Below, in pieces: positions 19,197 through 49,485 of a stretch of DNA of 64,000 nucleotides (positions within the stretch are counted from its first letter, which is position 1; every line of letters starts with the position of its first letter). The notes below the pieces were generated by a model that had not been told where the DNA came from, made no database searches, and worked only from the letters and a program-made list of their open reading frames with translations. The DNA comes from Chrysomallon squamiferum (taxonomy: Eukaryota; Mollusca; Gastropoda; Neomphalida; Peltospiridae). Location of the stretch: positions 712,873 to 776,872 of the forward strand of contig CM022665.1 of NCBI GenBank assembly GCA_012295275.1. Reading direction: 5' to 3'. Position numbers and translations under genes: made by a program.

Positions 19197-19277
19197 ATCG
19201 TTACGAGCTAATGACGACCCGGATACGTTTTGTTGTCTGTTGTTAATATATCTATGAGTTCGAGCTGTTCTTTACAG

Positions 19278-19300
19278 AAATAATGTAATTAAGAATTTAG
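19278..19300 (+). other. 23-bp micro-exon-like block of the old array (best-preserved example)
   Basis: TGTTCTTTACAG (acceptor-like), 23 bp beginning AAATAATG and ending TTTAG, then GTAAGT (donor-like). The same arrangement occurs at 31121-31143 and, with mutated splice dinucleotides, in about ten other units. A CACGTG-containing block lies ~80 bp upstream. This could be the relic of a repeated first exon with a start codon (ATG at base 6 of the block), but no transcript evidence exists here. Confidence 0.4.
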
Positions 19301-23000: not shown

Positions 23001-23039
<39 letters not shown>

Positions 23040-24350: not shown

Positions 24351-24352
24351 CA

Positions 24353-24388
<36 letters not shown>

Positions 24389-24432
24389 ATTACACAGACA
24401 CACACACACTCACACACACACACACACACACA
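24353..24432. repeat. (TTA)n followed by (CA)n
   Basis: Simple repeats at the end of the IAP-derived fragment. The IAP gene itself carries a (TTA)n run at the corresponding intron position (49421-49484), so the tract is probably inherited with the duplicate. Confidence 0.8.
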
Positions 24433-24544
24433 ATCAAAAATACGTCTAAACTTATTAGTTTTACGTTGTTAACTTTATAAAATATTTCCGTGTACGTCTT
24501 TTCTTTTGTGAAACTGAAACCTCTGTTATTTGTGACAAGGTTAA

Positions 24545-24770
24545 AAATGCAGTAAAAGGCACACCTACAAAAACACGCCGATAAAAGCGGGCCAACATAA
24601 TAGCTGTGTCAGTGCGCCGTTAGTACGTACAGGTCAAACTTTTGATCAAACTTTAATCCTGACACAAAAGGAATCTGTGATAGGTTTTGACAGTATAGTG
24701 AACCACTGTCAAAACTGTTATTTGTGATCATGAAGTTTAAAATAAAAGCACGCCTTCATAAGAATCTCGA
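24545..24770. other. Base-balanced insert with a perfect 11-bp hairpin
   Basis: This stretch is unlike its AT-rich surroundings (for example CACGCCGATAAAAGCGGGCC) and is absent from the other units of the old array. GTTTTGACAGT at 24684-24694 and ACTGTCAAAAC at 24705-24715 form a perfect 11-bp stem with a 10-base loop. It could be a small non-autonomous transposon or a fragment of one; no family was recognised. Confidence 0.45.
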
Positions 24771-24798
24771 CATGACTGCACAGCCTTTTTTTGTATAC

Positions 24799-24837
<39 letters not shown>

Positions 24838-27800: not shown

Positions 27801-28563
27801 TAGCAGTTAGATTTCTGGAATGTTAACAAGTTTATTTATATCACTTTTGTACACGTAATTTGAAAACGTGATCGTTACGAGGTCGAGACAACCCGTATAC
27901 ATTGCGTTGTGTATGTTTTAATATATCGAAGAGTTTGAGCTGGCCTTTACAGAAACAATGTTACTAGGAATTTAAGTAAGTTTACACAAATTTTAACAAC
28001 AGTTTTCTGTATCTAGTCATTTATGTGTATAAATATATATTTAATTGTGCAGAGATATTTATTCTTTTTAAATGTATGAAACTGATTTTAATATTACTTC
28101 CTTGTTTACGTTGTGTAAATTTCCACCGCTAATAACGAAAATTTTCTCGTCCATTTTGTTCGATCCAGTGAGTCACGTAAAAGATGCGTAGACACTGGAT
28201 TTAATTTTAAAAGGTTCAATAATAAGCCAGTATTTTTACACATTAAATTGTTGCTATCGTCAGATAAGAGAGAAAACGAACTTCTTTTCTAATAGAATAA
28301 GTCTAACACAAATATATAAAATGATTAGCTTTGTGTTTCTTTGTTTTTTTGTGGGTTTTTTTGTGAAACTCAAACGTTTGCGGACGAAAATATTTTCTGG
28401 AACGTTTGAGAACAGTGCATATAATTATTTACTACTCAGTGTAATGTTAACTTTGCACTGCAGCATAATGTTTGCAAATAATTAAATCCGACTTATTAAA
28501 AATGTATTCTAATTTAGGATTATGACTGCACATTGACAATAGAATATATTGTACTCTGCAAAA

Positions 28564-28600
<37 letters not shown>

Positions 28601-30337
28601 ATATATAATAAATAAAAGTGCACAAAAAATAAATGAAATAAAACACATAAAGGAAAAAATACATAAACATATAAACAAAATATACACATAAAGCAACAAC
28701 GAAACAAATAAAAGAAAAGAAAAGAAAATGAAATAAAACATAAAAGAACAAACAAATAAATAAATAATATAAAATAAAACAAAATAAAATAAAATAAAAA
28801 ATGGTGATAGCCTAAGTTATGATATTATTCTCAATAGTAGTTAGATTGTTACCAAGTTTATTTGAGTCCCGTGATCATTATAATGTAGAGATAACCAGTA
28901 AATGTTGTGTTGTCTGTTTCTAATATATCAAAGGGTTTCAGCTGTTCTTTTCAGAAATAATTCGATTAAGAATTAAGTAAGTTTATATTAAAAAAATAAT
29001 AACAGTTTTCTGTATCTAGCAATTTATGTGTGTAAATATATATTTATATATGTAGAAATATGTATATCTTTTAAATGTAGGAAACTGATTTTATCTTTAT
29101 TTCCTTGTTTACATTGTGTACATTTTCACAGCTAATAACGAAATTTTTCTTGTCGAATTTGTTCGATTCAATGAATTACGTAAAGCATGCGTAGACACTG
29201 GATTTAGTTACAAAATAATAATAATAAAAGTTTAAAACAAGACGAGTATTTTAACACAATAAATTTATATTATACTCAGATAATATAAAGAAAACAACTT
29301 ATATGATTAACTGATAATTTATTCTAGGTAAAACTGCTTATATTTTACTTAAATTACAACTAAGTACATAATTTTCATGGGAAACTTTCTTGTAGATAAT
29401 TTTTCTATATGTTTCAATAAAACGTATCCAGATTTGAACACAAATTTTCTAAGTATTTTTATTTGATATTTTTCTACTGGGCGGTAACAAAAGTTGCTGT
29501 TAGACACAAAATGAACAGATTGCGGTTTTGCAATCAGCTCAGTGTATTCAGAATATCAGATAAAATAAATTATTATAAAATAACTTCTATTTTTGCAACG
29601 GACTAAACTATTTCCTGTAATCTTTGATAACAGAGAACATAATTTCTCGTGAAAATCAAACGAAATATCGATGTGTTTGAGGTGTTCTTTACAGAAATAA
29701 TGTGATTAGGAATCTATACAGACATTTCAATAACAGTTTCCTTCATCCAGTAATCATATATTTATGTCTGTAAATATTCTGATACTTTTGCAAATATATT
29801 AAACCGATTTTAACTTTATACCCTTTCACCATTGTTTAACTTTGTGTACGTTTCATATTAACTAGAGAATCTTTTATTCAATACCAAAACTCACGTAAAA
29901 AGCATACTGGATTTAGTTGAAATAGATGAAAAACAGGATCAGTGTGTGAAATAAGAATGACATTTTATCACATTTTACTATCTTCAGACAGTAAAGAAAC
30001 TGACCTTCTTTCGTAGTTTTTACGAGCGACGACGAAAAGGTCACAAATATTGATCCGTTTTTGTCACCACTCTTCTTCAGCATCGTTTAGAATAATAGTT
30101 AGAAGTGTACAGAGTAAGTGTTAAGATAAATATTTAAAAATATTAGCTTTTAGTTGCTAACATTAACATTTCCGTGTACTTCTTTTCTTTTGTGAAACTG
30201 AAACTTCGATTATAACCTAAAAGATTTAAGTTAAAAATGTAAAAAACATTTGGTCATTTATTTTATCAACAACAGATAAAAAAACAACCAAAAAAAACCC
30301 CTAAATAAATAAAGAAATATATAAAGAAATAAATAAT

Positions 30338-30376
<39 letters not shown>

Positions 30377-32109
30377 TAATAATAATAATAATAATAAATG
30401 TATACGTCTTATTTTATTTTAACTTTTTTTTTATTTCGTTATTTTTATTGTTTTTATTATTTCTTTTTCCCCTCAAATTGAATGCTGTTTGATTGCAAGA
30501 GTATTAAAAGAAAAAAACCATAATAGTTGTAATATAAATAAAGATTTGTGTATTTGTCTGGTAAGAAAACTAATATATTTTAATATTATTATATTTTACA
30601 CATTAATCCACTGAGTATAACGTACATGAAAATGTTACAAATATTTATGTTTCAGAAAAGATTTCTAGATTTATGAAGAGTGAGTTAAAGTAATAAACAT
30701 AAAATTAATATTATAATAACAACATGTAAATGTGTATTCAAATCCGAGTTGATCTTATTAAGGCAGAAAATATAACAAGATACTATACGAAAAAGGTTTG
30801 CCGTGTAAATAACTTTTACTAGAATAAAATACAATGTATTCAACAGATTATAAATAAATAAATAAATAAATAAATAAATTAAAAAATAAAATGATATATA
30901 ATGAATTAAAACATATAAATAAACAAATAAAATAATAATAAAAAGACGATGTGGCCTGACTTATGAGATTATTCACAATAGCAGTTCATTTTCTAGAAGG
31001 TTGCCAAGTTTATTTATAGAACTTTGTACACGCACTTTGAGTCACGTGATCGCTGCGACGTAGATACGACCCATTACGTTTTGTTGTCTATTTGTAAAGT
31101 GTCTGTGCTGTTCTTTACAGAAATAATTTCATTACGAATATAGGTAAGTGTATAAACAATTTAATAACAGTTTCCTGTTTTACCATATCCAGATAACAGA
31201 AGAATAAGAAAAAAAAAAAACATTCTTTTATATTTGTTACGAGACACAAAGAAAAGGTTACAAATACTGACCCGTTTATGTCGCCCACTTTTTGAATATT
31301 TTTCTAAATAATTGCTAGGAGGGCACAGAGTAAGTGTGAAGAGAAATATAGTAAAAGTATGTCTTACAGTTTTATTAATTCAGCAGTCACATGTGGATGT
31401 AGCTGCTTAATGTCAGCACTGAATATCGCCTTTGAATAGTTTATATTTATGACAAACTTCATTTACATCAATAATAATATACAAACTTTCAATACAGCTT
31501 TGTAGTTTAAAATTTAGGAGAACACACAGTCAGACTACACTAGAATTAAGTTTAATTTATTTTACGACATTGCAACCAGAGATGTCATGATGACATACAG
31601 TAAACACACTGATAATTCTTACCTGCATGATTTACGACCAATATATTTATCCAAGTATGTAATAATTAACATATATAAATTGCTGTTACTTTACTTTCAC
31701 GACTGAAAGTATGAGTTGATTTTTCTGTTTTGATTTTACTTATTAAAATACGACTACGTATGAGTAGTTACAAAATAGGTTATGGACAAAGTTCTGAAAA
31801 ACGCTTAGAAGTATATTATTCTTATAAAATTGTTTTCTCACCTTTTCTTTCAAACATTTAGTTATCTGTCACTAACAACACGAAGACTTTTAAAAACAGC
31901 AGTTTTAACAGTCTCTTATACGGTTGTATTCATTGTCTTCTCAACAAATGTTTATCAGTTTGTCAAAGTGAAAACTTGAAGTAAACAAAGAAAATCGACC
32001 AAAATATATTTGAGCATTCGTATTAGTTTTAGTGATTTATATTACTGAAAAGTAGTAAATAAATTTTACTGGCATATAAAGGCATTGGTAATACTTGACA
32101 ATACTAGAA

Positions 32110-32191
32110 ATGTTTATCTTTACTTATGTGATTGAAACTACATCTCTAGGACTTCAATCTGCAGTGAAATTTCTCAAGGACAGCAAAGCAG
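32110..32191 (+). CDS. Candidate ATG exon of cassette 1
   Basis: ATG with A at -3 opens a frame reading MFIFTYVIETTSLGLQSAV then KFLKDSKA, ending at CAG|GTGGGC in phase 1. It can join in frame to the 213-bp exon that follows. Copies 2-8 carry Glu for Lys (FLEDSK). An in-frame stop lies upstream, so ATG is the natural start. A shorter 42-bp form using CTCTAG as acceptor (start 32150) would also be phase 1 on both sides. No signal peptide is convincing and no family is recognised. Real use is inference from splice signals and phase. Confidence 0.35.
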
Positions 32192-32653
32192 GTGGGCTTC
32201 AGATTCGTAATTATTTCCTAAATTTCTTTTACAGTTGTCAAGAATCAACGTAGTTTCTGGTAAACGGGAGTTACTTTGATATTTTAAGCTAAACCTTCAA
32301 TTTTTACTTGCATCGGCATTCAAAGAGTATTTAATTAATTACTAATACCAGTAATACATATTTTTAGTATTAGTCTTTGGTTTATACTTTCTGTGTTTGA
32401 CTAACCGAAACTTCTACTTCAAACAAGCGACTAAAATATTTCCTCGAAAGCAAGATAACAGTGTATTTAATTATTTTGCACAGGATTAATTCATATGAAA
32501 GGACTCCGTTGTCTCCTTGAGGAATTAAGTAACCTTGTCAGTGACTTTCTCCGGTAAAGAAAGAAAGACAAGTCATATACATTTGTATTAATATATTTTA
32601 TATTTTATCAAATTTAAGATATCAAACAGAACATTTGTGAAAAATACTTACAG

Positions 32654-32866
32654 CTATAAAATGTCAGTTGTATAATGTTACAGTGGTAAAGAGTCTTCCT
32701 GGACATAGGGTTACCCACAATCGACTGATGTCAAGTATAAAATGTTTTTATCAATTTCGTATTACAGAACAAAAAGATCAACTGAGTGAAATGGCAGTAT
32801 CAAACTATGTCATCAACCTGTACAACACTGCAGCACCACTACAATTTACAGACTTCATTTTTTCAG
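32654..32866 (+). CDS. Candidate 71-codon module exon, cassette 1 (A type)
   Basis: The exon lies between TACTTACAG and TTTTCAG|GTAAAT. It is 213 bp, enters and leaves in phase 1 and has no stop. Residues include AIKCQLYNVTVVK, SLPGHRVTHNRLMSSIKCF, YQFRITEQKDQLSEMAVSN and PLQFTDFIFS. There are two cysteines and one N-glycosylation sequon (N-V-T). Because it is symmetric, any number of copies could be joined in frame, or one chosen, and the last could be joined to the phase-1 membrane-anchor exon at 43487. I recognise no domain family. Alternative: an untranscribed repeat that happens to be open. The excess of amino-acid-changing differences in copies 7-8 favours coding. Confidence 0.5.
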
Positions 32867-33521
32867 GTAAATTTGTTAGTTTAAAGATTTCTCAGCTGTA
32901 ATGAAAAACACAACATTTTGCTACGTAAGTCCTGATTCATAAACTGAATGATATCAGATCAAACTGATAGTTCAGTAAATTCAGCAGTAATTAACATTTT
33001 AGCAAGAACATAACTGCATAATTCGTGCTTTGGAACGATGTCTCACTTCAGAATTTTTAATTCTCTATTTGGTTTACAAGTGATCTCTGCTACTTTAAAT
33101 GTTTCTTAACTATACACACATAATATTAAATTTATAGGAAATGTATATCTTACAGTTTTATTAATTCAGCAGTGAAATGTAGATGTAGCTGCTTAATGTA
33201 AGCATTGAATATCGCCTTTGAATTCGTGATAGTTATGATAATCTTCATTTACATCAATAATAATATACGAACTTTCAATAAAGCTTTGTAGATAAAAATT
33301 TACAAGAATTCAAACAGCAGTTTTAAAAGTCTCATATACGGTTGCATTCATTGTCTTCTCAACAAATCAGTCTGTCAAAGTTAAAACGTGGAGTAAACAA
33401 AGAAAATCGACCAAAATATATTTGAGCATTCGTATTAGTTTTAGTGATTTATATTACTGAAAAGTTATAAATAAATTTTACTGGCATATAAAGGCATTGG
33501 TAATACTTGACAATACTAGAA

Positions 33522-33603
33522 ATGTTTATCTTTACTTATGTGATTGAAACTACATCTCTAGGACTTCAATCTGCAGTGAAATTTCTCGAGGACAGCAAAG
33601 CAG
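33522..33603 (+). CDS. Candidate ATG exon of cassette 2
   Basis: Same as cassette 1 except Lys to Glu (FLEDSK). It ends in CAG|GTGGGC in phase 1. Equivalent exons lie at 34934, 36345, 37757, 39169, 40574 and 41986, all 82 bp. Confidence 0.35.
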
Positions 33604-34065
33604 GTGGGCTTCAGATTCGTAATTATTTCCTAAATTTCTTTTACAGTTGTCAAGAATCAACGTAGTTTCTGGTAAACGGGAGTTACTTTGATATTTTAAG
33701 CTAAACCTTCAATTTTTACTTGCATCGGCATTCAAAGAGTATTTAATTAATTACTAATACCAGTAATACATATTTTTAGTATTAGTCTTTGGTTTATACT
33801 TTCTGTGTTTGACTAACCGAAACTTCTACTTCAAACAAGCGACTAAAATATTTCCTCGAAAGCAAGATAACAGTGTATTTAATTATTTTGCACAGGATTA
33901 ATTCATATGAAAGGACTCCGTTGTCTCCTTGAGGAATTAAGTAACCTTGTCAGTGACTTTCTCCGGTAAAGAAAGAAAGACAAGTCATATACATTTGTAT
34001 TAATATATTTTATATTTTATCAAATTTAAGATATCAAACAGAACATTTGTGAAAAATACTTACAG

Positions 34066-34278
34066 CTATAAAATGTCAGTTGTATAATGTTACAGTGGTA
34101 AAGAGTCTTCCTGGACATAGGGTTACCCACAATCGACTGATGTCAAGTATAAAATGTTTTTATCAATTTCGTATTACAGAACAAAAAGATCAACTGAGTG
34201 AAATGGCAGTATCAAACTATGTCATCAACCTGTACAACACTGCAGCACCACTACAATTTACAGACTTCATTTTTTCAG
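34066..34278 (+). CDS. Candidate module exon, cassette 2 (A type)
   Basis: Encodes the same 71 residues as cassette 1, with the same TACTTACAG acceptor and CAG|GTAAAT donor, phase 1 to phase 1. Confidence 0.5.
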
Positions 34279-35477
34279 GTAAATTTGTTAGTTTAAAGAT
34301 TTCTCAGCTGTAATGAAAAACACAACATTTTGCTACGTAAGTCCTGATTCATAAACTGAATGATATCAGATCAAACTGATAGTTCAGTAAATTCAGCAGT
34401 AATTAACATTTTAGCAAGAACATAACTGCATAATTCGTGCTTTGGAACGATGTCTCACTTCAGAATTTTTAATTCTCTATTTGGTTTACAAGTGATCTCT
34501 GCTACTTTAAATGTTTCTTAACTATACACACATAATATTAAATTTATAGGAAATGTATATCTTACAGTTTTATTAATTCAGCAGTGAAATGTAGATGTAG
34601 CTGCTTAATGTAAGCATTGAATATCGCCTTTGAATTCGTGATAGTTATGATAATCTTCATTTACATCAATAATAATATACGAACTTTCAATAAAGCTTTG
34701 TAGATAAAAATTTACAAGAATTCAAACAGCAGTTTTAAAAGTCTCATATACGGTTGCATTCATTGTCTTCTCAACAAATCAGTCTGTCAAAGTTAAAACG
34801 TGGAGTAAACAAAGAAAATCGACCAAAATATATTTGAGCATTCGTATTAGTTTTAGTGATTTATATTACTGAAAAGTTATAAATAAATTTTACTGGCATA
34901 TAAAGGCATTGGTAATACTTGACAATACTAGAAATGTTTATCTTTACTTATGTGATTGAAACTACATCTCTAGGACTTCAATCTGCAGTGAAATTTCTCG
35001 AGGACAGCAAAGCAGGTGGGCTTCAGATTCGTAATTATTTCCTAAATTTCTTTTACAGTTGTCAAGAATCAACGTAGTTTCTGGTAAACGGGAGTTACTT
35101 TGATATTTTAAGCTAAACCTTCAATTTTTACTTGCATCGGCATTCAAAGAGTATTTAATTAATTACTAATACCAGTAATACATATTTTTAGTATTAGTCT
35201 TTGGTTTATACTTTCTGTGTTTGACTAACCGAAACTTCTACTTCAAACAAGCGACTAAAATATTTCCTCGAAAGCAAGATAACAGTGTATTTAATTATTT
35301 TGCACAGGATTAATTCATATGAAAGGACTCCGTTGTCTCCTTGAGGAATTAAGTAACCTTGTCAGTGACTTTCTCCGGTAAAGAAAGAAAGACAAGTCAT
35401 ATACATTTGTATTAATATATTTTATATTTTATCAAATTTAAGATATCAAACAGAACATTTGTGAAAAATACTTACAG

Positions 35478-35690
35478 CTATAAAATGTCAGTTGTATAAT
35501 GTTACAGTGGTAAAGAGTCTTCCTGGACATAGGGTTACCCACAATCGACTGATGTCAAGTATAAAATGTTTTTATCAATTTCGTATTACAGAACAAAAAG
35601 ATCAACTGAGTGAAATGGCAGTATCAAACTATGTCATCAACCTGTACAACACTGCAGCACCACTACAATTTACAGACTTCATTTTTTCAG
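35478..35690 (+). CDS. Candidate module exon, cassette 3 (A type)
   Basis: Identical in protein to cassette 1. Splice signals and phase are conserved. Confidence 0.5.
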
Positions 35691-36888
35691 GTAAATTTGT
35701 TAGTTTAAAGATTTCTCAGCTGTAATGAAAAACACAACATTTTGCTACGTAAGTCCTGATTCATAAACTGAATGATATCAGATCAAACTGATAGTTCAGT
35801 AAATTCAGCAGTAATTAACATTTTAGCAAGAACATAACTGCATAATTCGTGCTTTGGAACGATGTCTCACTTCAGAATTTTTAATTCTCTATTTGGTTTA
35901 CAAGTGATCTCTGCTACTTTAAATGTTTCTTAACTATACACACATAATATTAAATTTATAGGAAATGTATATCTTACAGTTTTATTAATTCAGCAGTGAA
36001 ATGTAGATGTAGCTGCTTAATGTAAGCATTGAATATCGCCTTTGAATTCGTGATAGTTATGATAATCTTCATTTACATCAATAATAATATACGAACTTTC
36101 AATAAAGCTTTGTAGATAAAATTTACAAGAATTCAAACAGCAGTTTTAAAAGTCTCATATACGGTTGCATTCATTGTCTTCTCAACAAATCAGTCTGTCA
36201 AAGTTAAAACGTGGAGTAAACAAAGAAAATCGACCAAAATATATTTGAGCATTCGTATTAGTTTTAGTGATTTATATTACTGAAAAGTTATAAATAAATT
36301 TTACTGGCATATAAAGGCATTGGTAATACTTGACAATACTAGAAATGTTTATCTTTACTTATGTGATTGAAACTACATCTCTAGGACTTCAATCTGCAGT
36401 GAAATTTCTCGAGGACAGCAAAGCAGGTGGGCTTCAGATTCGTAATTATTTCCTAAATTTCTTTTACAGTTGTCAAGAATCAACGTAGTTTCTGGTAAAC
36501 GGGAGTTACTTTGATATTTTAAGCTAAACCTTCAATTTTTACTTGCATCGGCATTCAAAGAGTATTTAATTAATTACTAATACCAGTAATACATATTTTT
36601 AGTATTAGTCTTTGGTTTATACTTTCTGTGTTTGACTAACCGAAACTTCTACTTCAAACAAGCGACTAAAATATTTCCTCGAAAGCAAGATAACAGTGTA
36701 TTTAATTATTTTGCACAGGATTAATTCATATGAAAGGACTCCGTTGTCTCCTTGAGGAATTAAGTAACCTTGTCAGTGACTTTCTCCGGTAAAGAAAGAA
36801 AGACAAGTCATATAAATTTGTATTAATATATTTTATATTTTATCAAATTTAAGATATCAAACAGAACATTTGTGGAAAATACTAACAG

Positions 36889-37101
36889 CTATAAAATGTC
36901 AGTTGTATAATGTTACAGTGGTAAAGAGTCTTCCTGGACACAGGGTTACCCACAATCGACTGATGTCAAGTATAAAATGTTTTTATCAATTTCGTATTAC
37001 AGAACAAAAAGATCAACTGAGTGAAATGGCAGTATCAAACTATGTCATCAACCTGTACAACACTGCAGCACCACTACAATTTACAGACTTCATTTTTTCA
37101 G
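36889..37101 (+). CDS. Candidate module exon, cassette 4 (A-type protein, B-type flanks)
   Basis: Encodes the same protein as cassettes 1-3, but the acceptor flank is GGAAAATACTAACAG and the text carries GGACACAGGG instead of GGACATAGGG (synonymous). Downstream ATACACAACATTTTGTTCCG is shared only with cassette 6. Confidence 0.5.
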
Positions 37102-38300
37102 GTAAATTTGTTAGTTTAAAGATTTCTCAGCTGTAATGAAAATACACAACATTTTGTTCCGTAATTCCTGATTCATAAACTGAATGATATCAGATCAAAC
37201 TGATAGTTCAGTAAATTCAGCAGTAATTAACATTTTAGCAAGAACATAACTGCATAATTCGTGCTTTGGAACGATGTCTCACTTCAGAATTTTAATTCTC
37301 TATTTGGTTTACAAGTGATCTCTGCTACTTTAAATGTTTCTTAACTATACACACATAATATTAAATTTATAGGAAATGTATATCTTACAGTTTTATTAAT
37401 TCAGCAGTGAAATGTAGATGTAGCTGCTTAATGTAAGCATTGAATATCGCCTTTGAATTCGTGATAGTTATGATAATCTTCATTTACATCAATAATAATA
37501 TACGAACTTTCAATAAAGCTTTGTAGATAAAAATTTACAAGAATTCAAACAGCAGTTTTAAAAGTCTCATATACGGTTGCATTCATTGTCTTCTCAACAA
37601 ATCAGTCTGTCAAAGTTAAAACGTGGAGTAAACAAAGAAAATCGACCAAAATGTATTTGAGCATTCGTATTAGTTTTAGTGATTTATATTACTGAAAAGT
37701 TATAAATAAATTTTACTGGCATATAAAGGCATTGGTAATACTTGACAATACTAGAAATGTTTATCTTTACTTATGTGATTGAAACTACATCTCTAGGACT
37801 TCAATCTGCAGTGAAATTTCTCGAGGACAGCAAAGCAGGTGGGCTTCAGATTCGTAATTATTTCCTAAATTTCTTTTACAGTTGTCAAGAATCAACGTAG
37901 TTTCTGGTAAACGGGAGTTACTTTGATATTTTAAGCTAAACCTTCAATTTTTACTTGCATCGGCATTCAAAGAGTATTTAATTAATTACTAATACCAGTA
38001 ATACATATTTTTAGTATTAGTCTTTGGTTTATACTTTCTGTGTTTGACTAACCGAAACTTCTACTTCAAACAAGCGACTAAAATATTTCCTCGAAAGCAA
38101 GATAACAGTGTATTTAATTATTTTGCACAGGATTAATTCATATGAAAGGACTCCGTTGTCTCCTTGAGGAATTAAGTAACCTTGTCAGTGACTTTCTCCG
38201 GTAAAGAAAGAAAGACAAGTCATATACATTTGTATTAATATATTTTATATTTTATCAAATTTAAGATATCAAACAGAACATTTGTGAAAAATACTTACAG

Positions 38301-38513
38301 CTATAAAATGTCAGTTGTATAATGTTACAGTGGTAAAGAGTCTTCCTGGACATAGGGTTACCCACAATCGACTGATGTCAAGTATAAAATGTTTTTATCA
38401 ATTTCGTATTACAGAACAAAAAGATCAACTGAGTGAAATGGCAGTATCAAACTATGTCATCAACCTGTACAACACTGCAGCACCACTACAATTTACAGAC
38501 TTCATTTTTTCAG
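38301..38513 (+). CDS. Candidate module exon, cassette 5 (A type)
   Basis: Returns to the A-type flanks of cassettes 1-3, giving the alternating order A, B, A, B for cassettes 3-6. Protein identical to cassette 1. Confidence 0.5.
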
Positions 38514-39712
38514 GTAAATTTGTTAGTTTAAAGATTTCTCAGCTGTAATGAAAAACACAACATTTTGCTACGTAAGTCCTGATTCATAAACTGAATGATA
38601 TCAGATCAAACTGATAGTTCAGTAAATTCAGCAGTAATTAACATTTTAGCAAGAACATAACTGCATAATTCGTGCTTTGGAACGATGTCTCACTTCAGAA
38701 TTTTTAATTCTCTATTTGGTTTACAAGTGATCTCTGCTACTTTAAATGTTTCTTAACTATACACACATAATATTAAATTTATAGGAAATGTATATCTTAC
38801 AGTTTTATTAATTCAGCAGTGAAATGTAGATGTAGCTGCTTAATGTAAGCATTGAATATCGCCTTTGAATTCGTGATAGTTATGATAATCTTCATTTACA
38901 TCAATAATAATATACGAACTTTCAATAAAGCTTTGTAGATAAAAATTTACAAGAATTCAAACAGCAGTTTTAAAAGTCTCATATACGGTTGCATTCATTG
39001 TCTTCTCAACAAATCAGTCTGTCAAAGTTAAAACGTGGAGTAAACAAAGAAAATCGACCAAAATGTATTTGAGCATTCGTATTAGTTTTAGTGATTTATA
39101 TTACTGAAAAGTTATAAATAAATTTTACTGGCATATAAAGGCATTGGTAATACTTGACAATACTAGAAATGTTTATCTTTACTTATGTGATTGAAACTAC
39201 ATCTCTAGGACTTCAATCTGCAGTGAAATTTCTCGAGGACAGCAAAGCAGGTGGGCTTCAGATTCGTAATTATTTCCTAAATTTCTTTTACAGTTGTCAA
39301 GAATCAACGTAGTTTCTGGTAAACGGGTGTTACTTTGATATTTTAAGCTAAACCTTCAATTTTTACTTGCATCGGCATTCAAAGAGTATTTAATTAATTA
39401 CTAATACCAGTAATACATATTTTTAGTATTAGTCTTTGGTTTATACTTTCTGTGTTTGACTAACCGAAACTTCTACTTCAAACAAGCGACTAAAATATTT
39501 CCTCGAAAGCAAGATAACAGTGTATTTAATTATTTTGCACAGGATTAATTCATATGAAAGGACTCCGTTGTCTCCTTGAGGAATTAAGTAACCTTGTCAG
39601 TGACTTTCTCCGGTAAAGAAAGAAAGACAAGTCATATAAATTTGTATTAATATATTTTATATTTTATCAAATTTAAGATATCAAACAGAACATTTGTGGA
39701 GAATACTAACAG

Positions 39713-39925
39713 CTATAAAATGTCAGTTGTATAATGTTACAGTGGTAAAGAGTCTTCCTGGACACAGGGTTACCCACAATCGACTGATGTCAAGTATAAA
39801 ATGTTTTTATCAATTTCGTATTACAGAACAAAAAGATCAACTGAGTGAAATGGCAGTATCAAACTATGTCATCAACCTGTACAACACTGCAGCACCACTA
39901 CAATTTACAGACTTCATTTTTTCAG
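39713..39925 (+). CDS. Candidate module exon, cassette 6 (A-type protein, B-type flanks)
   Basis: Flanks as in cassette 4, including TTTTGTTCCG downstream. Protein as cassette 1. Confidence 0.5.
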
Positions 39926-41117
39926 GTAAATTTGTTAGTTTAAAGATTTCTCAGCTGTAATGAAAATACACAACATTTTGTTCCGTAATTCCTGATTCAT
40001 AAACTGAATGATATCAGATCAAACTGATAGTTCAGTAAATTCAGCAGTAATTAACATTTTAGCAAGAACATAACTGCATAATTCGTGCTTTGGAACGATG
40101 TCTCACTTCAGAATTTTTAATTCTCTATTTGGTTTACAAGTGATCTCTGCTACTTTAAATGTTTCTTAACTATACACACATAATATTAAATTTATAGGAA
40201 ATGTATATCTTACAGTTTTATTAATTCAGCAGTGAAATGTAGATGTAGCTGCTTAATGTAAGCATTGAATATCGCCTTTGAATTCGTGATAGTTATGATA
40301 ATCTTCATTTACATCAATAATAATATACGAACTTTCAATAAAGCTAAAAATTTACAAGAATTCAAACAGCAGTTTTAAAAGTCTCATATACGGTTGCATT
40401 CATTGTCTTCTCAACAAATCAGTCTGTCAAAGTTAAAACGTGGAGTAAACAAAGAAAATCGACCAAAATGTATTTGAGCATTCGTATTAGTTTTAGTGAT
40501 TTATATTACTGAAAAGTTATAAATAAATTTTACTGGCATATAAAGGCATTGGTAATACTTGACAATACTAGAAATGTTTATCTTTACTTATGTGATTGAA
40601 ACTACATCTCTAGGACTTCAATCTGCAGTGAAATTTCTCGAGGACAGCAAAGCAGGTGGGCTTCAGATTCGTAATTATTTCCTAAATTTCTTTTACAGTT
40701 GTCAAGAATCAACGTAGTTTCTGGTAAACAGGTGTTACTTTGATATTTTAAGCTAAACCTTCAATTTTTACTTGCATCGGCATTCAAAGAGTATTTAATT
40801 AATTACTAATACCAGTAATACATATTTTTAGTATTAGTCTTTGGTTTATACTTTCTGTGTTTGACTAACCGAAACTTCTACTTCAAACAAGCGACTAAAA
40901 TATTTCCTCGAAAGCAAGATAACAGTGTATTTAATTATTTTGCACAGGATTAATTCATATGAAAGGACTCCGTTGTCTCCTTGAGGAATTAAGTAACCTT
41001 GTCAGTGACTTTCTCCGGTAAAGAAAGAAAGACAAGTCATATAAATTTGTATTAATATATTTTATATTTTATCAAATTTAAGATATCAAACAGAACATTT
41101 GTGGAGAATACTAACAG

Positions 41118-41330
41118 CTATAAAATGTCAGTTGTATAATGTTACAGTGGTAAAGAGTCTTCCTGGACACAGGGTTACCCACAATCGACTGATGTCAAGT
41201 ATAAAATGGTTATACCAATTTCATAATACAGTACAAAGAGATCAACTGAGTGAAATGGCAGTATCAAACAATGACATCAACCTGCACCCCACTGGAGCAC
41301 CACTACAATTTACAGACTTCATTTTTTCAG
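41118..41330 (+). CDS. Candidate module exon, cassette 7 (diversified)
   Basis: Same splice signals and phase, but 13 substitutions against cassette 6 lie between about 41209 and 41303. Changes are C-W, F-L, R-H, I-N, E-V, K-R, Y-N, V-D, Y-H, N-P (two bases) and A-G, with one synonymous change (TAT to TAC). The central text becomes WLYQFHNTVQRDQLSE and NNDINLHPTGAP. One of the two cysteines is lost. The rest of the unit remains almost identical to its neighbours. Confidence 0.55.
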
Positions 41331-42528
41331 GTAAATTTGTTAGTTTAAAGATTTCTCAGCTGTAATGAAAAACACAACATTTTGCTACGTAAGTCCTGAT
41401 TCATAAACTGAATGATATCAGATCAAACTGATAGTTCAGTAAATTCAGCAGTAATTAACATTTTAGCAAGAACATAACTGCATAATTCGTGCTTTGGAAC
41501 GATGTCTCACTTCAGAATTTTTAATTCTCTATTTGGTTTACAAGTGATCTCTGCTACTTTAAATGTTTCTTAACTATACACACATAATATTAAATTTATA
41601 GGAAATGTATATCTTACAGTTTTATTAATTCAGCAGTGAAATGTAGATGTAGCTGCTTAATGTAAGCATTGAATATCGCCTTTGAATTCGTGATAGTTAT
41701 GATAATCTTCATTTACATCAATAATAATATACGAACTTTCAATAAAGCTTTGTAGATAAAAATTTACAAGAATTCAAACAGCAGTTTTAAAAGTCTCATA
41801 TACGGTTGCATTCATTGTCTTCTCAACAAATCAGTCTGTCAAAGTTAAAACGTGGAGTAAACAAAGAAAATCGACCAAAATGTATTTGAGCATTCGTATT
41901 AGTTTTAGTGATTTATATTACTGAAAAGTTATAAATAAATTTTACTGGCATATAAAGGCATTGGTAATACTTGACAATACTAGAAATGTTTATCTTTACT
42001 TATGTGATTGAAACTACATCTCTAGGACTTCAATCTGCAGTGAAATTTCTCGAGGACAGCAAAGCAGGTGGGCTTCAGATTCGTAATTATTTCCTAAATT
42101 TCTTTTACAGTTGTCAAGAATCAACGTAGTTTCTGGTAAACGGGTGTTACTTTGATATTTTAAGCTAAACCTTCAATTTTTACTTGCATCGGCATTCAAA
42201 GAGTATTTAATTAATTACTAATACCAGTAATACATATTTTAGTATTAGTCTTTGGTTTATACTTTCTGTGTTTGACTAACCGAAACTTCTACTTCAAACA
42301 AGCGACTAAAATATTTCCTCGAAAGCAAGATAACAGTGTATTTAATTATTTTGCACAGGATTAATTCATATGAAAGGACTCCGTTGTCTCCTTGAGGAAT
42401 TAAGTAACCTTGTCAGTGACTTTCTCCGGTAAAGAAAGAAAGACAAGTCATATAAATTTGTATTAATATATTTTATATTTTATCAAATTTAAGATATCAA
42501 ACAGAACATTTGTGGAGAATACTAACAG

Positions 42529-42741
42529 CTATAAAATGTCAGTTGTATAATGTTACAGTGGTAAAGAGTCTTCCTGGACACAGGGTTACCCACAATCGAC
42601 TGATGTCAAGTATAAAATGGTTATACCAATTTCATAATACAGTACAAAGAGATCAACTGAGTGAAATGGCAGTATCAAACAATGACATCAACCTGCACCC
42701 CACTGGAGCACCACTACAATTTACAGACTTCATTTTTTCAG
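42529..42741 (+). CDS. Candidate module exon, cassette 8 (diversified), nearest the IAP gene
   Basis: Protein identical to cassette 7. As the last cassette it is the one that would splice directly to the membrane-anchor exon at 43487: its final TCA G joins AC CTA to give Ser-Asp-Leu, keeping the frame. The sequence after it diverges from other units, marking the array's old right edge. Confidence 0.55.
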
Positions 42742-43486
42742 GTAAATTTGTTAGTTTAAAGATTTCTCAGCTGTAATGAAAAACACAACATTTTGCTACG
42801 TAAGTCCTAATTCATAAACTGAATGATATCAGATCAAACTCTTAGTTCAGTAAATTCAGCAGGAATTAAGCTTTTAACAAGAACATAACTGTCTATTTCG
42901 TGCTTTGGAACGATGTCTCACTTGAGGATTTTTAATTCTCTATTTGGTTTTCAAGTGATCTCTGCTACTTTAAATGTTTCTTAACTATTCACACATAATA
43001 TTAAATTTAAAGAATGCTTAAATACAGGGTCTCAATTTCCATTTTAATGTTGCATTTGACTATGATAGCCAATCTCTGCTTCTAAAAGGAGTTCGGCCAT
43101 AAAATATTCATATTTTGTAATCTTGCATTAGGTCAAAGGACCCTACCACGTGTATCTTTTAATAAAGAAACAAACATCAACATCTATAACGTATTTAACT
43201 AGTGCACATGTATCAACGAATTTAGTAACAGTGGAATGCTGTAAGTTTGATTATTCTGACCTGTCTCAAAATATGTCAAAAACAGTAATCTCAGAACTTC
43301 ATTAATGTCCTGGTTTCGTTGTCAGAACGTTTGTCTGTCTGTGACTGTGTGCATTTTTCTAATCTGAATAACTATCACATGAGAAAATAAGATGAAAACA
43401 TAATAATTTTCTTATAATCGTAAACTGATGTCAATTCTTAAATTTTAAATACATTTTTTTTTATTTAATTTTTTCTGAAATAACAG

Positions 43487-43573
43487 ACCTAGTGATGGAA
43501 GTGAAAGACTTGATCTCTGCAATACTGATTATTTGTTATGCATTGTACAGATTTCTTATGACGATTAAACCAG
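43487..43573 (+). CDS. Candidate membrane-anchor exon upstream of IAP exon
   Basis: Acceptor AAATAACAG, then 87 bp, then CCAG|GTATGT; phase 1 on both sides. It reads LVMEVKDLISAILIICYAL and then YRFLMTIKP. The stretch LISAILIICYALYRFL is hydrophobic and followed by Arg and Lys, as in a single membrane helix with its C-terminal side in the cytosol. It joins in frame with the 213-bp modules before it and the IAP exon after it (G plus TT gives Val, then Met-Glu-Lys-Arg). The helix is short, so a buried amphipathic helix is possible. If the IAP instead starts at its own ATG, this exon would be unused or 5' UTR. Confidence 0.5.
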
Positions 43574-43582
43574 GTATGTTTT

Positions 43583-43754
43583 ATTATTATTATTATTATT
43601 ATTATTATAATGTTTTAAATTTAACAATATTGAAAAGATCATAACAGATCACAGGAAGACGTTAAATGTTTTATTACTGGATTAAAGCTTGTTAGTTTAA
43701 TTTCCTACTTTAGGTAGCACGCTATTTTTTATTTTGTTTTATTATTATTATTAC

Positions 43755-43814
<60 letters not shown>

Positions 43815-43873
43815 GTTTATTATTCTTATTCTTCTTATTATTATTATTTTTATTATTATTATTATTATTATTT
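43583..43873. repeat. (TTA)n tracts in the intron before the IAP exon
   Basis: Short (TTA)n at about 43583-43608 and a long one at about 43739-43873. They produce a spurious poly-Tyr reading frame. No regulatory site is evident. Confidence 0.9.
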
Positions 43874-44060
43874 TGTTTATAAGAACCCAATTTTGATATT
43901 CCCACTTTACAGCAATATATTAGGGGATTTACAATTTAGTATTTTACAATTAAATATTTATTTATTTATTTATTTATTTACTGTTAAAGTTTTGTTGAAT
44001 GAACTGTGTTTAGCGAATTTGTTTTAATTCGTAAGTACTGTTTCTGATATTTATCTGCAG

Positions 44061-47000
44061 TTATGGAAAAACGATCACTAAGAAATGATGAGAACAAACT
44101 GAGAAGCGATGATAGAGAACAGATCAAATATACTGAGACAGAACAGTTGAGAAGTGATGAGACGGGACAGTTAAGAAGTGATGAGAGAGAACAGCTGAGA
44201 AGTGATGAGAGAGAACAGCTGAGAAGTTATGAGTCAGTACAGCTGAGAAGTGAAGAGAGAGAACAGCTGAGAAGTGATGAGACAGAACAGCTGAGAAGTG
44301 ATGAGAGAGAACAGCTGAGAAGTTATGAGTCAGTACAGCTGAGAAGTGATGAGAGAGAACAGCTGAGAAGTGATGAGACAGAACAGTGGAGAAGTGATGA
44401 GACAGAACAGTTGAGAAGTGGTGAGACAGAACAACTGAAAAGTGATGAGACGGAACAGTTGAGAAGTGATGAGAGAGAACAGTTGAGAAGTGATGAGACG
44501 GAACAGTTGAGAAGTGATGAGAGAGAACAGTTGAGAAGTGATGAGACGGAACAGTTGAGAAGTGATGAGAGAGAACAGTTGAGAAGTGATGAGACGGAAC
44601 AGTTGAGAAGTGATGAGACGGAACAGTTGAGAAGTGATGAGACGGAACAGTTGAGAAGTGATCAGACGGAACAGTTGAGAAGTCATGAGACGGGACAGTT
44701 GAGAAGTGATGAGAGAGAACAGTTGAGAAGTGATGAGACGGAACAGTTGAGAAGTGATCAGACGGAACAGTTGAGAAGTGATCAGACGGGACAGTTGAGA
44801 AGTGATGAGAGAGAACAGTTGAGAAGTGATGAGACGGAACAGTGGAGAAGTGATGAGACAGAACAGTTGAGAAGTGGTGAGACAGAAGAACTGAAAAGTG
44901 ATGAGACAGAACAGTTGACAAATGAAGAGAGAGGACAGCTGAGAAGTGATGATACAGAACAATTGAGAAGTGATGATACATTAAAGTTGAGAAGTGATGA
45001 TACAGAACAATTGAGAAGTGATGAGACGGAACAGTTGAGAAGTGATCAGACGGAACAGTTGAGAAGTGATCAGACGGAACAGTTGAGAAGTGATGAGACG
45101 GGACAGTTAAGAAGTGATGAGAGAGAACAGTTGAGAAGTGATCAGACAGAACAGTTGAGTGAAGAGACAGAACAGCTGAGAAGTGAAGAGACAAAACAGT
45201 TGAGAAGTGATGAGACAGAACAGTTGAGTGAAGAGACAGAACAGCTGAGAAGTAACGAGACAGAACAGTTGAGTGAAGAGACAGAACAGCTGAGTGAAGA
45301 GACAGAACAGCTTAGAATTGATGAGAGAGAAGAGTTGAGAAGTGATGAGACAGAACAGTTGAGTGAAGAGACAGAACAGGTGAGAAGTGAAGAGACGGAA
45401 CAGTTGAGAAGTGATGAGAGAGAACAGTTGAGAAGTGATGAGACGGAACAGTTGAGAAGTGATGAGAGAGAACAGCTGAGAAGTGATGAGACGGGACAGT
45501 TAAGAAGTGATGAGAGAGAACAGTTGAGAAGTGATGAGACAGAACAGTTGAGAAGTGATGAGACAGAACAGCTGAGAAGTGATGAGAGAGAACAGCTGAG
45601 AAGTTATGAGTCAGTACAGCTGAGAAGTGATGAGAGAGAACAGCTGAGAAGTGATGAGACAGAACAGTGGAGAAGTGATGAGACAGAACAGTTGAGAAGT
45701 GATGAGACAGAACAACTGAAAAGTGATGAGACGGAACAGTTGAGAAGTGATGAGAGAGAACAGTTGAGAAGTGATGAGACGGAACAGTTGAGAAGTGATG
45801 AGAGAGAACAGTTGAGAAGTGATGAGACGGAACAGTTGAGAAGTGATGAGAGAGAACAGTTGAGAAGTGATGAGACGGAACAGTCGAGAAGTGATGAGAC
45901 GGAACAGTTGAGAAGTGATGAGACGGAACAGTTGAGAAGTGATCAGACGGAACAGTTGAGAAGTGATGAGACGGGACAGTTGAGAAGTGATGAGAGGGAA
46001 CAGTTGAGAAGTGATGAGACGGAACAGTTGAGAAGTGATGAGACGGAACAGTTGAGAAGTGATCAGACGGAACAGTTGAGAAGTGATCAGACGGAACAGT
46101 TGAGAAGTGATGAGACAGAACAGTTGAGAAGTGATGAGACAGAACAGCTGAGAAGTGATGAGACAGAACAGTGGAGAAGTGATGAGACAGAACAGTGGAG
46201 AAGTGATGAGACAGAACAGCTGAGAAGTGGTGAGACAGAAGAACTGAAAAGTGATCAGACAGAACAGTTGACAAATGAAGAGAGAGGACAGCTGAGAAGT
46301 GATGATACAGAACAATTGAGAAGTGATGATACATTACAGTTGAGAAGTGATGATACAGAACAGTTGAGAAGTGATGAGAGAGAACAGTTGAGAAGTGAAG
46401 AGAGAGAACAGTTGAGAAGTGATGATACAGAACAGTTGAGAAGTGATGAGAGAGAACAGTTGAGAAGTGAAGAGAGAGAACAGTTGATAAGTGATGATAC
46501 AGAACAGTTGAGAAGTGATGAGAGAGAACAGCTGAGAAGTGATGAGACAGGACAGTTGAGAAGTGAAGAGAGAGAACAGTTGAGAAGTGATGATACAGAA
46601 CAGTTGAGAAGTGATGAGAGAGAACAGTTGAGAAGTGAAGAGAGAGAACAGTTGAGAAGTGACGAGAGAGAACAGTTGACAAATGATGAATTAGGAACAG
46701 AACCTTCAGACACTGTCAGGTACAGGAGGGAGTGGGACCGATATGCGTCTTACTTACGATTTCCTCTAACCTCAGCCTGGCCAAGTCGTCTTGCAACTGC
46801 TGGATTCTACTACACTGGGACTGGTGATCGCGTTGTGTGCTTCAGCTGTGGTCAGAGCTATGATCACTGGAGACCTGCAGGTAATCCAGTGGAAATTCAC
46901 AGACAAATCTCACCAAGCTGCAGATTTGTCCTGGGAGAGGAAGAAAATGAGCCGATTCTGGTAAGTGAGAACGATGAGCAGAGACTACAAGAAATCCTGG

Positions 47001-48661
47001 GCAGATTATCTGTACCAGTATTGAGATCTTCTGCTATTCAAAGTGAAACACTTCGTAATCGGAACGAGTCTGAATGTTCAGTTAGTGACAATGAACTGTT
47101 TGGAGTCTCTGAAACATCTACTGTTAATATCAGTGATATGGCTACAAATACTGTTTCACTTCCTGATAATGCTACAGTTCCTTCTTTTACTGGTCAGAGT
47201 TATGTCAGTGGTGATGCTGTTGCTTCTAATGATTCTCATCAAAGTTCTTCACAGCTCAGTCTCAGTAATTTACCAATCCTTCAGCTGTCCGGTTTTCTGT
47301 CTGGAAGCTCCTCTACATCAGCCCCGACATTGCATGCACCACGTCACAGCGACTACGGCGACGTACAACGACGTTTTTCGTCTTTTGAACACCGATGGCC
47401 ACATCCTGACAACCAATCTCCGAGAGAACTGGCAGAAGCCGGTTTCTTCTTCTCTGGTTAGTGTTAATGCTACTTAACATTTTAATGACAATGTTAATTT
47501 CAATGGTAACTTAAGACCTTGACATTTTAATTCACTGGAATTTTGGGACATTTTAATAGTCATTTGAAATCTTTGATATTTTAATAATTATTTCTAAACC
47601 TTTGACATTTTTATAGTCACTTGATGTCTTCGACATTTCAGTAGATATTTAAAATGTTTGATATTTTAATAATCATATACAATCTTTGATATTTAAATAG
47701 TGAAATTAAATTTTCAGAATTCAACCTTTATTGCGAATTTGGACGTTTTGGTAGACATTTGAATACTTCAGTATTTTAATAATCATTTGACGTTTTTGAC
47801 AGTTAAATAATCATGTGAAGATCTTGAATGTTTAACAGTATTTTGAAATTCTTTGATATTTTTAATTCTTACAGCATGAAATACATTTAAGAAGCAAACG
47901 AAATATCATACAAAAAACAAAAACATAAAAGAAACCAAATAATGTAATGAAATGAAATAAAATAAAATAAATAAATAAATAAATTTAGGTACATATGAAT
48001 ATTTGTCTGTCTTTCAGACAGATGAAAAACGAAAAAAAATATTAAGAACTAAAAGATGAAACAGAAAATAAAGTCACACAAACATAATTTCTTTGGTGTA
48101 CAATTTTATTTTGTTGTTATTTTATATTACAATTTCAAATTTCACTCAAGCTAATTTTCATATTTTATTAATGAAAATACTGTGTGTGTACGAGTGTGTG
48201 GATTGTCAGATGAAATGTATACAGTTATGAACAAGAACATTCATGTATATACAGGTAATTCACGTGATAGTACGTCCTGCTTTTACTGTGGCGGAGGACT
48301 TAGAAATTGGATGCAGGGAGATAACCCTTACGTGGAACACGCCAGATGGTTTCCACAATGCGATTTCATCAGACAGGTGAAGGGAGTCAGTTTTGTTGAT
48401 TTGGTTCAAGAAATGAATGAAAATGAAGTGGAGGTAACTAGCTGAAATGTTTAGCTTTACCATGAAATTATTAAACGTTTGTATAAATATATGTAGTTGT
48501 GTTTACACTAGGAATTCACCAATTTCTTAAATTTAATTTACATTTTCTAATCTTTTCTCTCCCTGTTTATTACTGTTTTTATTGTTTACATTTATTTATT
48601 TATTCACTGATTTATTTATTTATTTATTTAAATTAGTTTAAAATTTTTATTATATTATCTT

Positions 48662-48725
<64 letters not shown>

Positions 48726-49419
48726 AAAATATGTCATCAATGTTTTAAAATTATTTTAGATTGACTATAACCAAGTGATGGATATTTTAGATGATTGTCG
48801 ACCTACTTTTGAACGTCTTGGAATTAAAACACGTCAAGGTAAGTTTTAACTTTAACAAAATTCTAGATTTACGAACAAGATTCTATAGATTGCACAATGT
48901 CACAAATTAATGTCAAGATAAAAGTATTTAATAGTTTACATCCCACAAAGTATCATTTTAAATGAGATCACGTCAGTAGAATTAATATTATAAATATTTT
49001 ATTTCATTTTGTTCATATAGTTGATGAATTCATTGTATCTGAAGGAAGGAGTGATGAATTTATCGAAACAACAAGAAACACAAAACGTGCAGCTGAAGGT
49101 ATATTGTAGTTTTATTTGACTACATTTTATTTATTTATTTGTTTGTTTGTTTGTTTGTTTGTTTATTTATTTGTTGTTTATTTATTTGTTTGTTTATTGC
49201 TATTATTTGTATATCTGTTATTGTTGTTTTACTGTAATTATTATTAATGTTCTTATTATTGCTGTATTTGTTCTTGTTATTAGTTGTTATGATTATGATT
49301 ATTAATAATACTAATATTACATTTTATTCATTTATTTTTTAATTATTATTTATCTATTTATTTATTTATCACTGGTGTAGTTGTTATTGTTTTTGTCACT
49401 GATGTTACTTGTAATGAAA

Positions 49420-49485
<66 letters not shown>

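Follow-up and report, generated by a model that had tools for sequence, protein, structure and literature searches.

The window analysed here, 64,000 nucleotides of contig CM022665.1 from Chrysomallon squamiferum, contains a real array of eight near-identical cassette units upstream of a predicted IAP gene (Table 1). A CAG/GTAAAT donor follows directly after the last position of each cassette exon, with a donor-to-donor spacing of 1405–1412 bp, and the units are 97.7–100% identical to unit 2, implying that the expansion is recent; units 2 and 3 show no difference across 1412 bp, and unit 1, which is shorter than the others, is 98.4% identical to unit 2 across 973 bp. Ahead of each of the eight donors one frame stays open for 213 bp, while an open phase-1 frame of at least 213 nt before the donor arose in 4 of 2000 dinucleotide shuffles.

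Table 1. Features of the array and of the predicted IAP gene (positions within the window).
Feature	Position	Strand	Basis
Older decayed array of E1-/E2-like repeats (5' exon + promoter-like units)	17912..30210	+	profile search, alignments
Proximal E1 (donor after 31143), region of a predicted 5' noncoding exon	31000..31178	+	donor score 10.2
Proximal E2, predicted 5' noncoding exon	31193..31329	+	acceptor 8.3, donor 6.5; conserved with E1
Cassette array: eight near-identical units of ~1.41 kb + flanking remnants	31347..43012	+	donors, unit alignments
Predicted cassette exon 1, type A, 99 bp, ATG at 32791	32768..32866	+	donor, acceptor score, sister exons
Predicted cassette exon 2, type A	34180..34278	+	donor, acceptor score, sister exons
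Predicted cassette exon 3, type A	35592..35690	+	donor, acceptor score, sister exons
Predicted cassette exon 4, type A	37003..37101	+	donor, acceptor score, sister exons
Predicted cassette exon 5, type A	38415..38513	+	donor, acceptor score, sister exons
Predicted cassette exon 6, type A	39827..39925	+	donor, acceptor score, sister exons
Predicted cassette exon 7, type B	41232..41330	+	donor, A/B comparison, acceptor score, sister exons
Predicted cassette exon 8, type B, ATG at 42666	42643..42741	+	A/B comparison, acceptor score, sister exons
Predicted membrane-anchor exon, 87 bp, phase 1-1	43487..43573	+	hydrophobic stretch; intact sister exon C1:161021
Large IAP exon with ~107 octad repeats, the first BIR and the beginning of the second	44061..47456	+	frame, Pfam
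IAP exon: remainder of second BIR	48255..48433	+	frame, Pfam
IAP exon	48760..48838	+	read-through chain
IAP exon	49021..49098	+	read-through chain
IAP exon: RING finger + stop codon	49696..49875	+	frame, Pfam

IAP (BIRC) proteins carry one or more BIR domains and, in many members, a C-terminal RING, and they block caspases or ubiquitinate partners. The BIR-BIR-RING effector that an earlier note on this DNA had placed downstream of the array is confirmed by two stretches matching Pfam BIR (PF00653; 143.2 bits against a cut-off of 22.9) and one matching RING (PF13920; 48.9 bits against 27), and the phase-1 joins it proposed for the anchor exon and the large IAP exon are likewise borne out, the chain reading open through to the RING. 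The anchor exon has a mean hydropathy of 2.1 over 17 residues; a phase-1-symmetric hydrophobic exon this good occurred in 2 of 2000 intron shuffles at loose settings and in 1 of 2000 at strict ones. Among IAP homologues (the best 120 of 765 matches), 11 have a hydrophobic stretch (hydropathy at least 1.6) before the first BIR, and the closest IAP among the matches listed, from Gigantopelta aegis (43%), has no anchor. At the five loci inspected the membrane exon is intact in two and absent or altered in three (at 227 kb its frame is open, with acceptor and hydrophobic stretch lost), for which reason the idea that membrane receptors are the norm in this family was rejected.

Immediately before the array lies the proximal E1–E2 stretch, which is 91–93% identical in four sister loci, other E1-/E2-like matches being at 69–85%. 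A profile search from 17912 to 31360 gave 13 E1 and 12 E2 matches, of which the last pair is the proximal one. In the older array the donors are variably intact in alignments; conservation of the E1 donor there is not above that of its surroundings (47 of 150 windows as high), and E2 exceeds its surroundings modestly (17 of 244 windows as high for the donor, 12 of 244 for the acceptor).

Sister cassettes occur on the same contig, coordinates on which are prefixed C1; four of the 33 matches of one contig search (C1:72015, 96055, 267390 and 294442) lie outside the analysed DNA. Within that DNA there are 46 matches to the donor flank, 28 of them with the acceptor motif at no more than two mismatches (the eight of the window and 20 others), the remaining 18 being units without a recognisable exon. 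The AG, the GT and an open phase-1 frame are kept in 17 of the 20 sister copies and broken in three; C1:242338 (113 bp), one of the 17, was counted as open from its ATG. Of all 28 cassettes, 25 are open over the full exon, with lengths of 69, 78, 81, 84, 99, 108, 114 and 126 bp, all multiples of three; exons in the sister arrays thus range from 69 to 126 bp, those of the window being 99 bp. Cassettes of the start type, whose predicted peptide opens with MAVSN, are 93% identical over their first 39 nt and 54% thereafter, as judged from six of eight start-like sequences (window types A and B included); the sister loci C1:114k and 198k each have a single start-type cassette, and behind it variable cassettes that lack the conserved start. 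Parts of the order E1–E2, cassettes, short phase-1 exon, octads and BIR are seen again at sister loci; at C1:394k the frame from the anchor-exon acceptor runs for 719 codons, through the octads into the second BIR, and at the 800 kb locus a phase-1 IAP exon start was looked for and none was found.

These sister copies bear directly on where the exon begins. The earlier note had taken the 213-bp open block, entered by a good acceptor, as the exon, giving a 71-residue module, and had suggested that either many such modules might be included or one of eight chosen. The eight units, their donors and the open stretch all stand, but the acceptor of the block is poor: its splice-site score is 0.0–1.0, a value matched by roughly one in three of the 3808 AG sites. 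In units 1–6 a stronger acceptor (6.6; 173 of the 3808 AG sites are as good) is found 99 bp upstream of the donor, and units 7 and 8, which are of type B, have a weaker form of it (1.8). What decides the matter is that every one of the 20 sister exons has a phase-1 stop 13–94 nt upstream of the conserved acceptor, reading open across the 213-bp block being confined to the window's eight units (0 of 20 sister copies). For this reason the block is rejected; the predicted window exon is 99 bp, or 33 codons, and the module has 33 residues. Nor would a choice of one of eight yield eight different peptides, as the eight blocks exist in three DNA versions that encode two peptides only. Between units 6 and 8 there are 13 substitutions, confined to 87 bp, and one indel; eight of the substitutions fall in the exon and five in the intron end, the pattern that gene conversion would give. 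The window cassettes are of the start type, and since each carries its own conserved start codon the cassette is probably the first coding exon. Protein database searches (two) with the cassette peptides found no resembling protein, and a PDB search gave no match.

The same upstream stops dispose of a longer frame of three exons per unit (in unit 8, X1 41986–42067, X2 42359–42428 and X3 42584–42741), which was ruled out because all 20 sister copies interrupt it. Of 2000 shuffles none produced this frame when site scores were strict and 9 did when they were loose (with X3 fixed, 16 and 199 of 2000 respectively), and the low shuffle P proved misleading. In protocadherin/UGT1A-type genes a promoter stands before each variable exon; such a per-unit promoter was looked for, and TATAAAG does occur in every window unit, 35 bp before an ATG at which the three-exon frame starts. 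Together with the three-exon frame reaching the donor, this motif might suggest that each unit is a separate small gene, complete with promoter and ends and having no part in the IAP mRNA. We consider this very improbable and have set the independent short gene aside: its frame would need an exon start before the true acceptor, where the sister stops lie, and the conserved donor and phase-1 end demand a downstream exon.

Evidence that the cassette is coding comes from its divergence. Between pairs of distinct types in the C1:185–198k array the exon differs by 29–38% and the flanks (~1,670 bases) by 1.8–3.7%, so that in this best sister array the exon difference is about ten times that of flanking DNA. 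Four chosen pairs, pooled, show 65 nonsynonymous and 3 synonymous changes (pN 0.250, pS 0.044, binomial P 0.00016), with pN/pS of 0.6 and 0.7 in the other two frames. For the seven 78-bp types the bootstrap interval for pN−pS is 0.119 to 0.335 in the coding frame (0.078 to 0.284 when the copy with a lost donor is removed) and spans zero in the other frames. Because nonsynonymous change exceeds synonymous change in the phase-1 frame only, the cassette is a predicted coding exon under diversifying selection; this, and the recurrence of parts of the order at sister loci, strengthens the earlier proposal that a phase-1 cassette exon belongs to an IAP gene. Between loci the contrast is one-sided: when 112078 or 113441 is compared with the 186–197k copies, the downstream flank (0.325–0.329) is nearly as divergent as the exon (0.35–0.49), the upstream flank being at 0.04–0.05, or at 0.55 against the short unit of 197488. 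Venom toxin exons also diverge faster than their introns, with a nonsynonymous excess, and the cassettes resemble them in both respects; unlike those toxins, which are secreted and encoded by separate genes, they lie in tandem upstream of an effector that is intracellular.

It might be argued instead that the fast change reflects relaxed constraint or imported sequence, the array being a decaying repeat. Three of the 20 sister copies are indeed broken, the A/B patch does extend into the intron, and one downstream IAP looks broken in the present assembly: in the nearest IAP downstream of the C1:185–198k array (at C1:154–161k) the frame of the octads meets a stop at C1:159416 and that of the BIR (159001–157642) is offset by one relative to it, so that this IAP, beneath the array of greatest diversity, may be a dead gene or contain a mis-sequenced repeat. 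Even so, an excess limited to the nonsynonymous sites of one frame, the keeping of triplet lengths and within-array flanks at 2–4% make decay an extremely improbable account.

As to how the cassettes are used, we would put at about even chances a model in which they are spliced in upstream of the IAP as N-terminal coding exons, a variable number being included in series, as in human LPA kringle IV-2; we infer the splicing to the IAP, the number of cassettes per mRNA and the function from the DNA. The conserved noncoding exons E1 and E2 would lead into the cassette exons, and a start-type cassette (all eight are such in the window gene) would supply the conserved ATG along with a ~25-residue variable peptide. 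Phase-1 symmetry would allow any number of cassettes to fit in frame. Next would come the predicted membrane anchor, a different short exon or, with neither, the octads, and after these BIR-BIR-RING. Serial inclusion is preferred because an acceptor and a donor accompany each intact cassette and no feature was seen that would exclude a neighbour.

In coding repeats of the LPA kind all copies enter the mRNA, and copy number differs between individuals; in Dscam-type exclusive exons exactly one variant does. Kringle IV type 2 is described in PMC4378929 as tandem 5.5-kb units each with two exons coding a kringle, of few sequence types and with 98–100% identity among the copies' first exons. The window array is like it in having tandem, near-identical, multi-kilobase, exon-bearing units of few sequence types, with an in-phase exon, and unlike it in that each unit has a single 99-bp exon, of a hypervariable family, ahead of an IAP. 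Dscam (PMC1397879) has variant exons in tandem arrays within one gene; tandem variant exons of equal phase are present here too, but they encode 23–42 residues and show amino-acid change against conserved flanks.

Choice of a single cassette per mRNA, Dscam fashion, giving mutually exclusive N-terminal peptides rather than strings of modules, seems unlikely. The cassettes do share phase and splice motifs, the C1:185–198k array offers several clearly different peptides, and each start-type cassette has its own ATG, so one would be enough; against this, none of the features analysed enforces exclusion, and in the window gene a choice between identical neighbours such as units 2 and 3 would be pointless. 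Less probable again is that the cassettes are exons of which the first or last copy alone is used, the others being passengers of unequal crossing-over. The near-identity of the window units along introns and exon alike, the decayed exon-less units in sister arrays and the broken appearance of the IAP at C1:154–161k would all fit, whereas the several divergent but intact exons of the C1:185–198k array, with conserved splice sites, would not.

Molluscs have many IAP genes (PMC8917759, PMC7831173), with alternative splicing (PMC8917759) and tandem duplication and domain shuffling (PMC7831173) reported in passages of these papers; the word 'transmembrane' is absent from their main texts, and those passages hold no variable 5' exon array. 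A literature search found no IAP with such an exon array. What would be new is an IAP gene with an exon array; tandem exon arrays themselves are known, from Dscam and LPA.

The cassettes would be likely to give a cell-death regulator fast-changing N-terminal binding peptides, and pathogens or symbionts, engaged in an arms race with the host, would be the likely drivers of that change. It is possible, although we would not call it probable, that the vent-snail IAP cluster is a variable recognition system, in which hypervariable exons under diversifying selection, joined in any number, would provide fast-changing N-terminal sensor peptides on a cell-death E3 ligase (membrane-anchored or soluble according to the gene), coupling recognition of a microbe or symbiont directly to whether the host cell lives or dies. 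Molluscs are rich in IAP genes; here one fast-evolving part is a tiny, tandem-amplified N-terminal exon which, if translated as predicted, hints at what these proteins recognise and would represent diversity generated by exon arrays in a protein that belongs to none of the known receptor families. The setting is an animal group whose relatives house bacteria inside cells, and if the arrays splice in the manner proposed they would furnish a death-control protein with exchangeable front ends.

Judged from the DNA, the cassettes (short phase-1 exons in tandem units of ~1.41 kb) are a coding, hypervariable exon family, arrayed ahead of predicted IAP genes to which they would be spliced; the earlier note holds in part, and the case for its central point is stronger than sequence alone could have told its reader. 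The eight tandem units that it described are all present in the window, with eight donors spaced by 1405-1412 bp and an open frame before each, and are 97.7-100% identical to unit 2. Its 213-bp phase-1 block stands as an open frame in all eight units but not as an exon boundary, where the acceptor scores 0.0-1.0 by splice-site matrix, as against 6.6 (units 1-6) and 1.8 (units 7-8) for a site lying 99 bp 5' of the donor. The predicted peptides are MAVSNYVINLYNTAAPLQFTDFIFS in six of the eight units and MAVSNNDINLHPTGAPLQFTDFIFS in two, all eight being of the start type, i.e. containing a conserved ATG. Units 6 and 8 differ solely by one indel and an 87-bp patch with 13 substitutions (five of them just 5' of the exon), a pattern such as a conversion tract would give.

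Features of the window (window positions)
Feature	Position	Remarks
Separate tandem repeat	600-5200	unit ~1.14 kb; assembly gap (N) near 4980-5190
MULE transposase-like fragment	16725-17084	near left edge of E1/E2 array; E 0.00056, below Pfam cut-off
Decayed copy of IAP intron-exon stretch (48896-49603)	23843-24362	~70%; within upstream repeat array
Proximal E1, predicted 5' noncoding exon	31000..31178	
Proximal E2, predicted 5' noncoding exon	31193..31329	
Older stretch, left end of cassette array	31347-31522	88%
Patch differing between units 6 and 8	34157-34243	and equivalents
Remnant, right end of cassette array	42742-43012	94.5%
Predicted membrane-anchor exon	43487-43573	87 bp
Large IAP exon	from 44061	
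Octad spacer (8-residue repeats)	44134-46689	~107 tandem 24-bp repeats; some 850 residues 5' of first BIR
Predicted IAP exons after large exon	48255-48433, 48760-48838, 49021-49098, 49696-49875	frame continuous to stop

The exon boundary is best defined by the sister arrays elsewhere on the same contig (CM022665.1, hereafter C1), in which the cassette flanks are conserved and the exon is not. Within the window and the C1 regions examined, 28 of 46 matches to the donor flank also show the acceptor motif AATTTCATATTACAG, allowing two mismatches at most: eight inside the window and 20 outside it. Most of the remaining 18 fall in decayed units of 1.34-1.40 kb. Such cassette-related tandem units, in which the donors have decayed and no cassette exon can be recognised, occupy C1:98808-111095 and 177660-183157. 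Both splice dinucleotides (AG and GT) and a phase-1 frame without stops are kept in 17 of the 20 sister copies (242338 being read from its ATG). The three that fail are 183727, which is open but lacks its donor; 225145, which also lacks its donor; and 223229, which has lost its acceptor and is out of frame. Whole open exons measure 69, 78, 81, 84, 99, 108, 114 or 126 bp, and that of 242338 is 113 bp. A phase-1 stop lies 13-94 nt 5' of the acceptor in all 20 sister copies, while all eight window copies are open across the 213-bp block; these stops exclude both the 213-bp exon and a model with a three-exon frame within each unit.

The cassette that comes first after the proximal E1-E2 pair opens, in five loci (C1:114139, 197794, 223229 and 794740, and the window), with a conserved stretch ending in ATGGCATTATCAAAC or near it. 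Across six start-type sequences, including the window's types A (units 1-6) and B (units 7-8) and leaving aside C1:389841 and 242338 (related ATGGGA form), identity is 93% in the first 39 nt and 54% in the remainder. In 242338 a phase-1 reading from the acceptor meets a stop, and the frame from its ATG ends in phase 1, as a start-codon exon would allow. Later cassettes of the sister arrays have no conserved methionine.

Divergence is concentrated in the exon. An alignment of seven full units from the minus-strand array at C1:185-198k shows that units of distinct exon type differ at 29-38% of exon positions as against 1.8-3.7% of ~1,670 non-exon sites, and that exons of like type differ by 0-8%. 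Four pairs picked as deep splits (192192/188686, 112078/183727, 755614/752798 and 197794/114139) give pooled counts of 65 nonsynonymous and 3 synonymous differences, bearing in mind that within-array pairs are partly dependent and that one pair contains the donor-less copy 183727; in the two alternative frames the same pairs give pN/pS of 0.6 and 0.7. For all seven 78-bp types pN is 0.363 and pS 0.135, the bootstrap interval of the difference being 0.119 to 0.335, or 0.078 to 0.284 without 183727. On these counts the cassette exons appear to be under diversifying selection. Between loci the downstream flank differs by 0.31-0.34, about as much as the exon, and the upstream flank by only 0.04-0.05 (112-113k copies versus 186-196k copies); the upstream flank of the short unit of 197488 does not match (0.52-0.55).

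The connection to the IAP gene through the anchor exon, as the note proposed it, would be in frame: a single frame leads from the last cassette through the anchor exon and the large exon into four further predicted exons and a stop. The 429-residue IAP body contains two BIR stretches and a RING, and the best match to it in the database, at 43% identity, comes from the vent snail Gigantopelta aegis and is XIAP-like. The predicted membrane-anchor exon exceeds chance, being equalled in 2 of 2000 shuffles; in the anchor form the variable peptide would, by the positive-inside rule, sit outside the cytosol. The word "transmembrane" is absent, on a word search, from the main texts of PMC8917759 and PMC7831173.

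At sister loci this region varies. The anchor exon is intact, with few changes, at C1:161021; at 227 kb its acceptor AG has become TG, leaving an open 78-bp remainder without a hydrophobic stretch; at 394 kb its acceptor is followed directly by octads, in phase 1, with 719 codons open into the second BIR. The place of the anchor exon could be taken at 800 kb by a non-hydrophobic exon of 60 or 51 bp, but no site was found there at which the IAP exon could begin in phase 1. The 161-kb gene, which of the IAPs lies closest downstream of the array with the greatest diversity (C1:185-198k), has ACG in place of ATG at the start of its IAP exon, so that translation probably starts upstream; but its octad frame runs into a stop at C1:159416 and the BIR frame is out by one, so the gene may be defective or its sequence in error.

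A genome search gave 33 matches to the 213-bp block, every one within C1:72 kb-805 kb, and a search with the IAP body gave at least 15 RING exons, one of them partial, from C1:33.9 kb to 810.6 kb; the matches listed also include further clusters around 21.5 Mb and 49.2 Mb. At C1:49163705-49207730 BIR-exon matches recur every ~1.58 kb, forming another tandem IAP-exon array. Parts of the window's order are repeated at sister loci on either strand, the regions compared excluding E1-E2 at 389 kb and the IAP end at 98-118 kb; C1:222-229k has a complete E1-E2-to-BIR run, although neither its first cassette nor its anchor exon retains an acceptor. Four sister loci match the proximal E1-E2 stretch at 91-93% identity (over 361, 290, 361 and 366 aligned positions), and the remaining E1- or E2-like matches reach 69-85%; search matches starting at query position 344-349 are part of the cassette unit. 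In the window GAAACNGAAAC has seven matches (0.22 expected), six of them among the repeats that precede the gene (18000-31100), and CACGTGATC has 19 with at most one mismatch (6.1 expected), eight within the array of cassettes and another eight in E1 repeats, as if these were copies of one promoter.

Because the cassettes share one phase and each has its own splice sites, any number could be joined, and serial inclusion is tentatively favoured, by analogy with human LPA KIV-2 (PMC4378929), a model for serial reading of such arrays; Dscam (PMC1397879) is the precedent for choice of a single exon. In the open-licence literature, as far as titles and abstract openings go, no variable exon array came to light in an IAP. 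In Gigantopelta, according to PMC7895826, IAPs are among the expanded gene families and are classed as immune. The selection on the exon suggests that the cassettes may serve in recognition or evasion.
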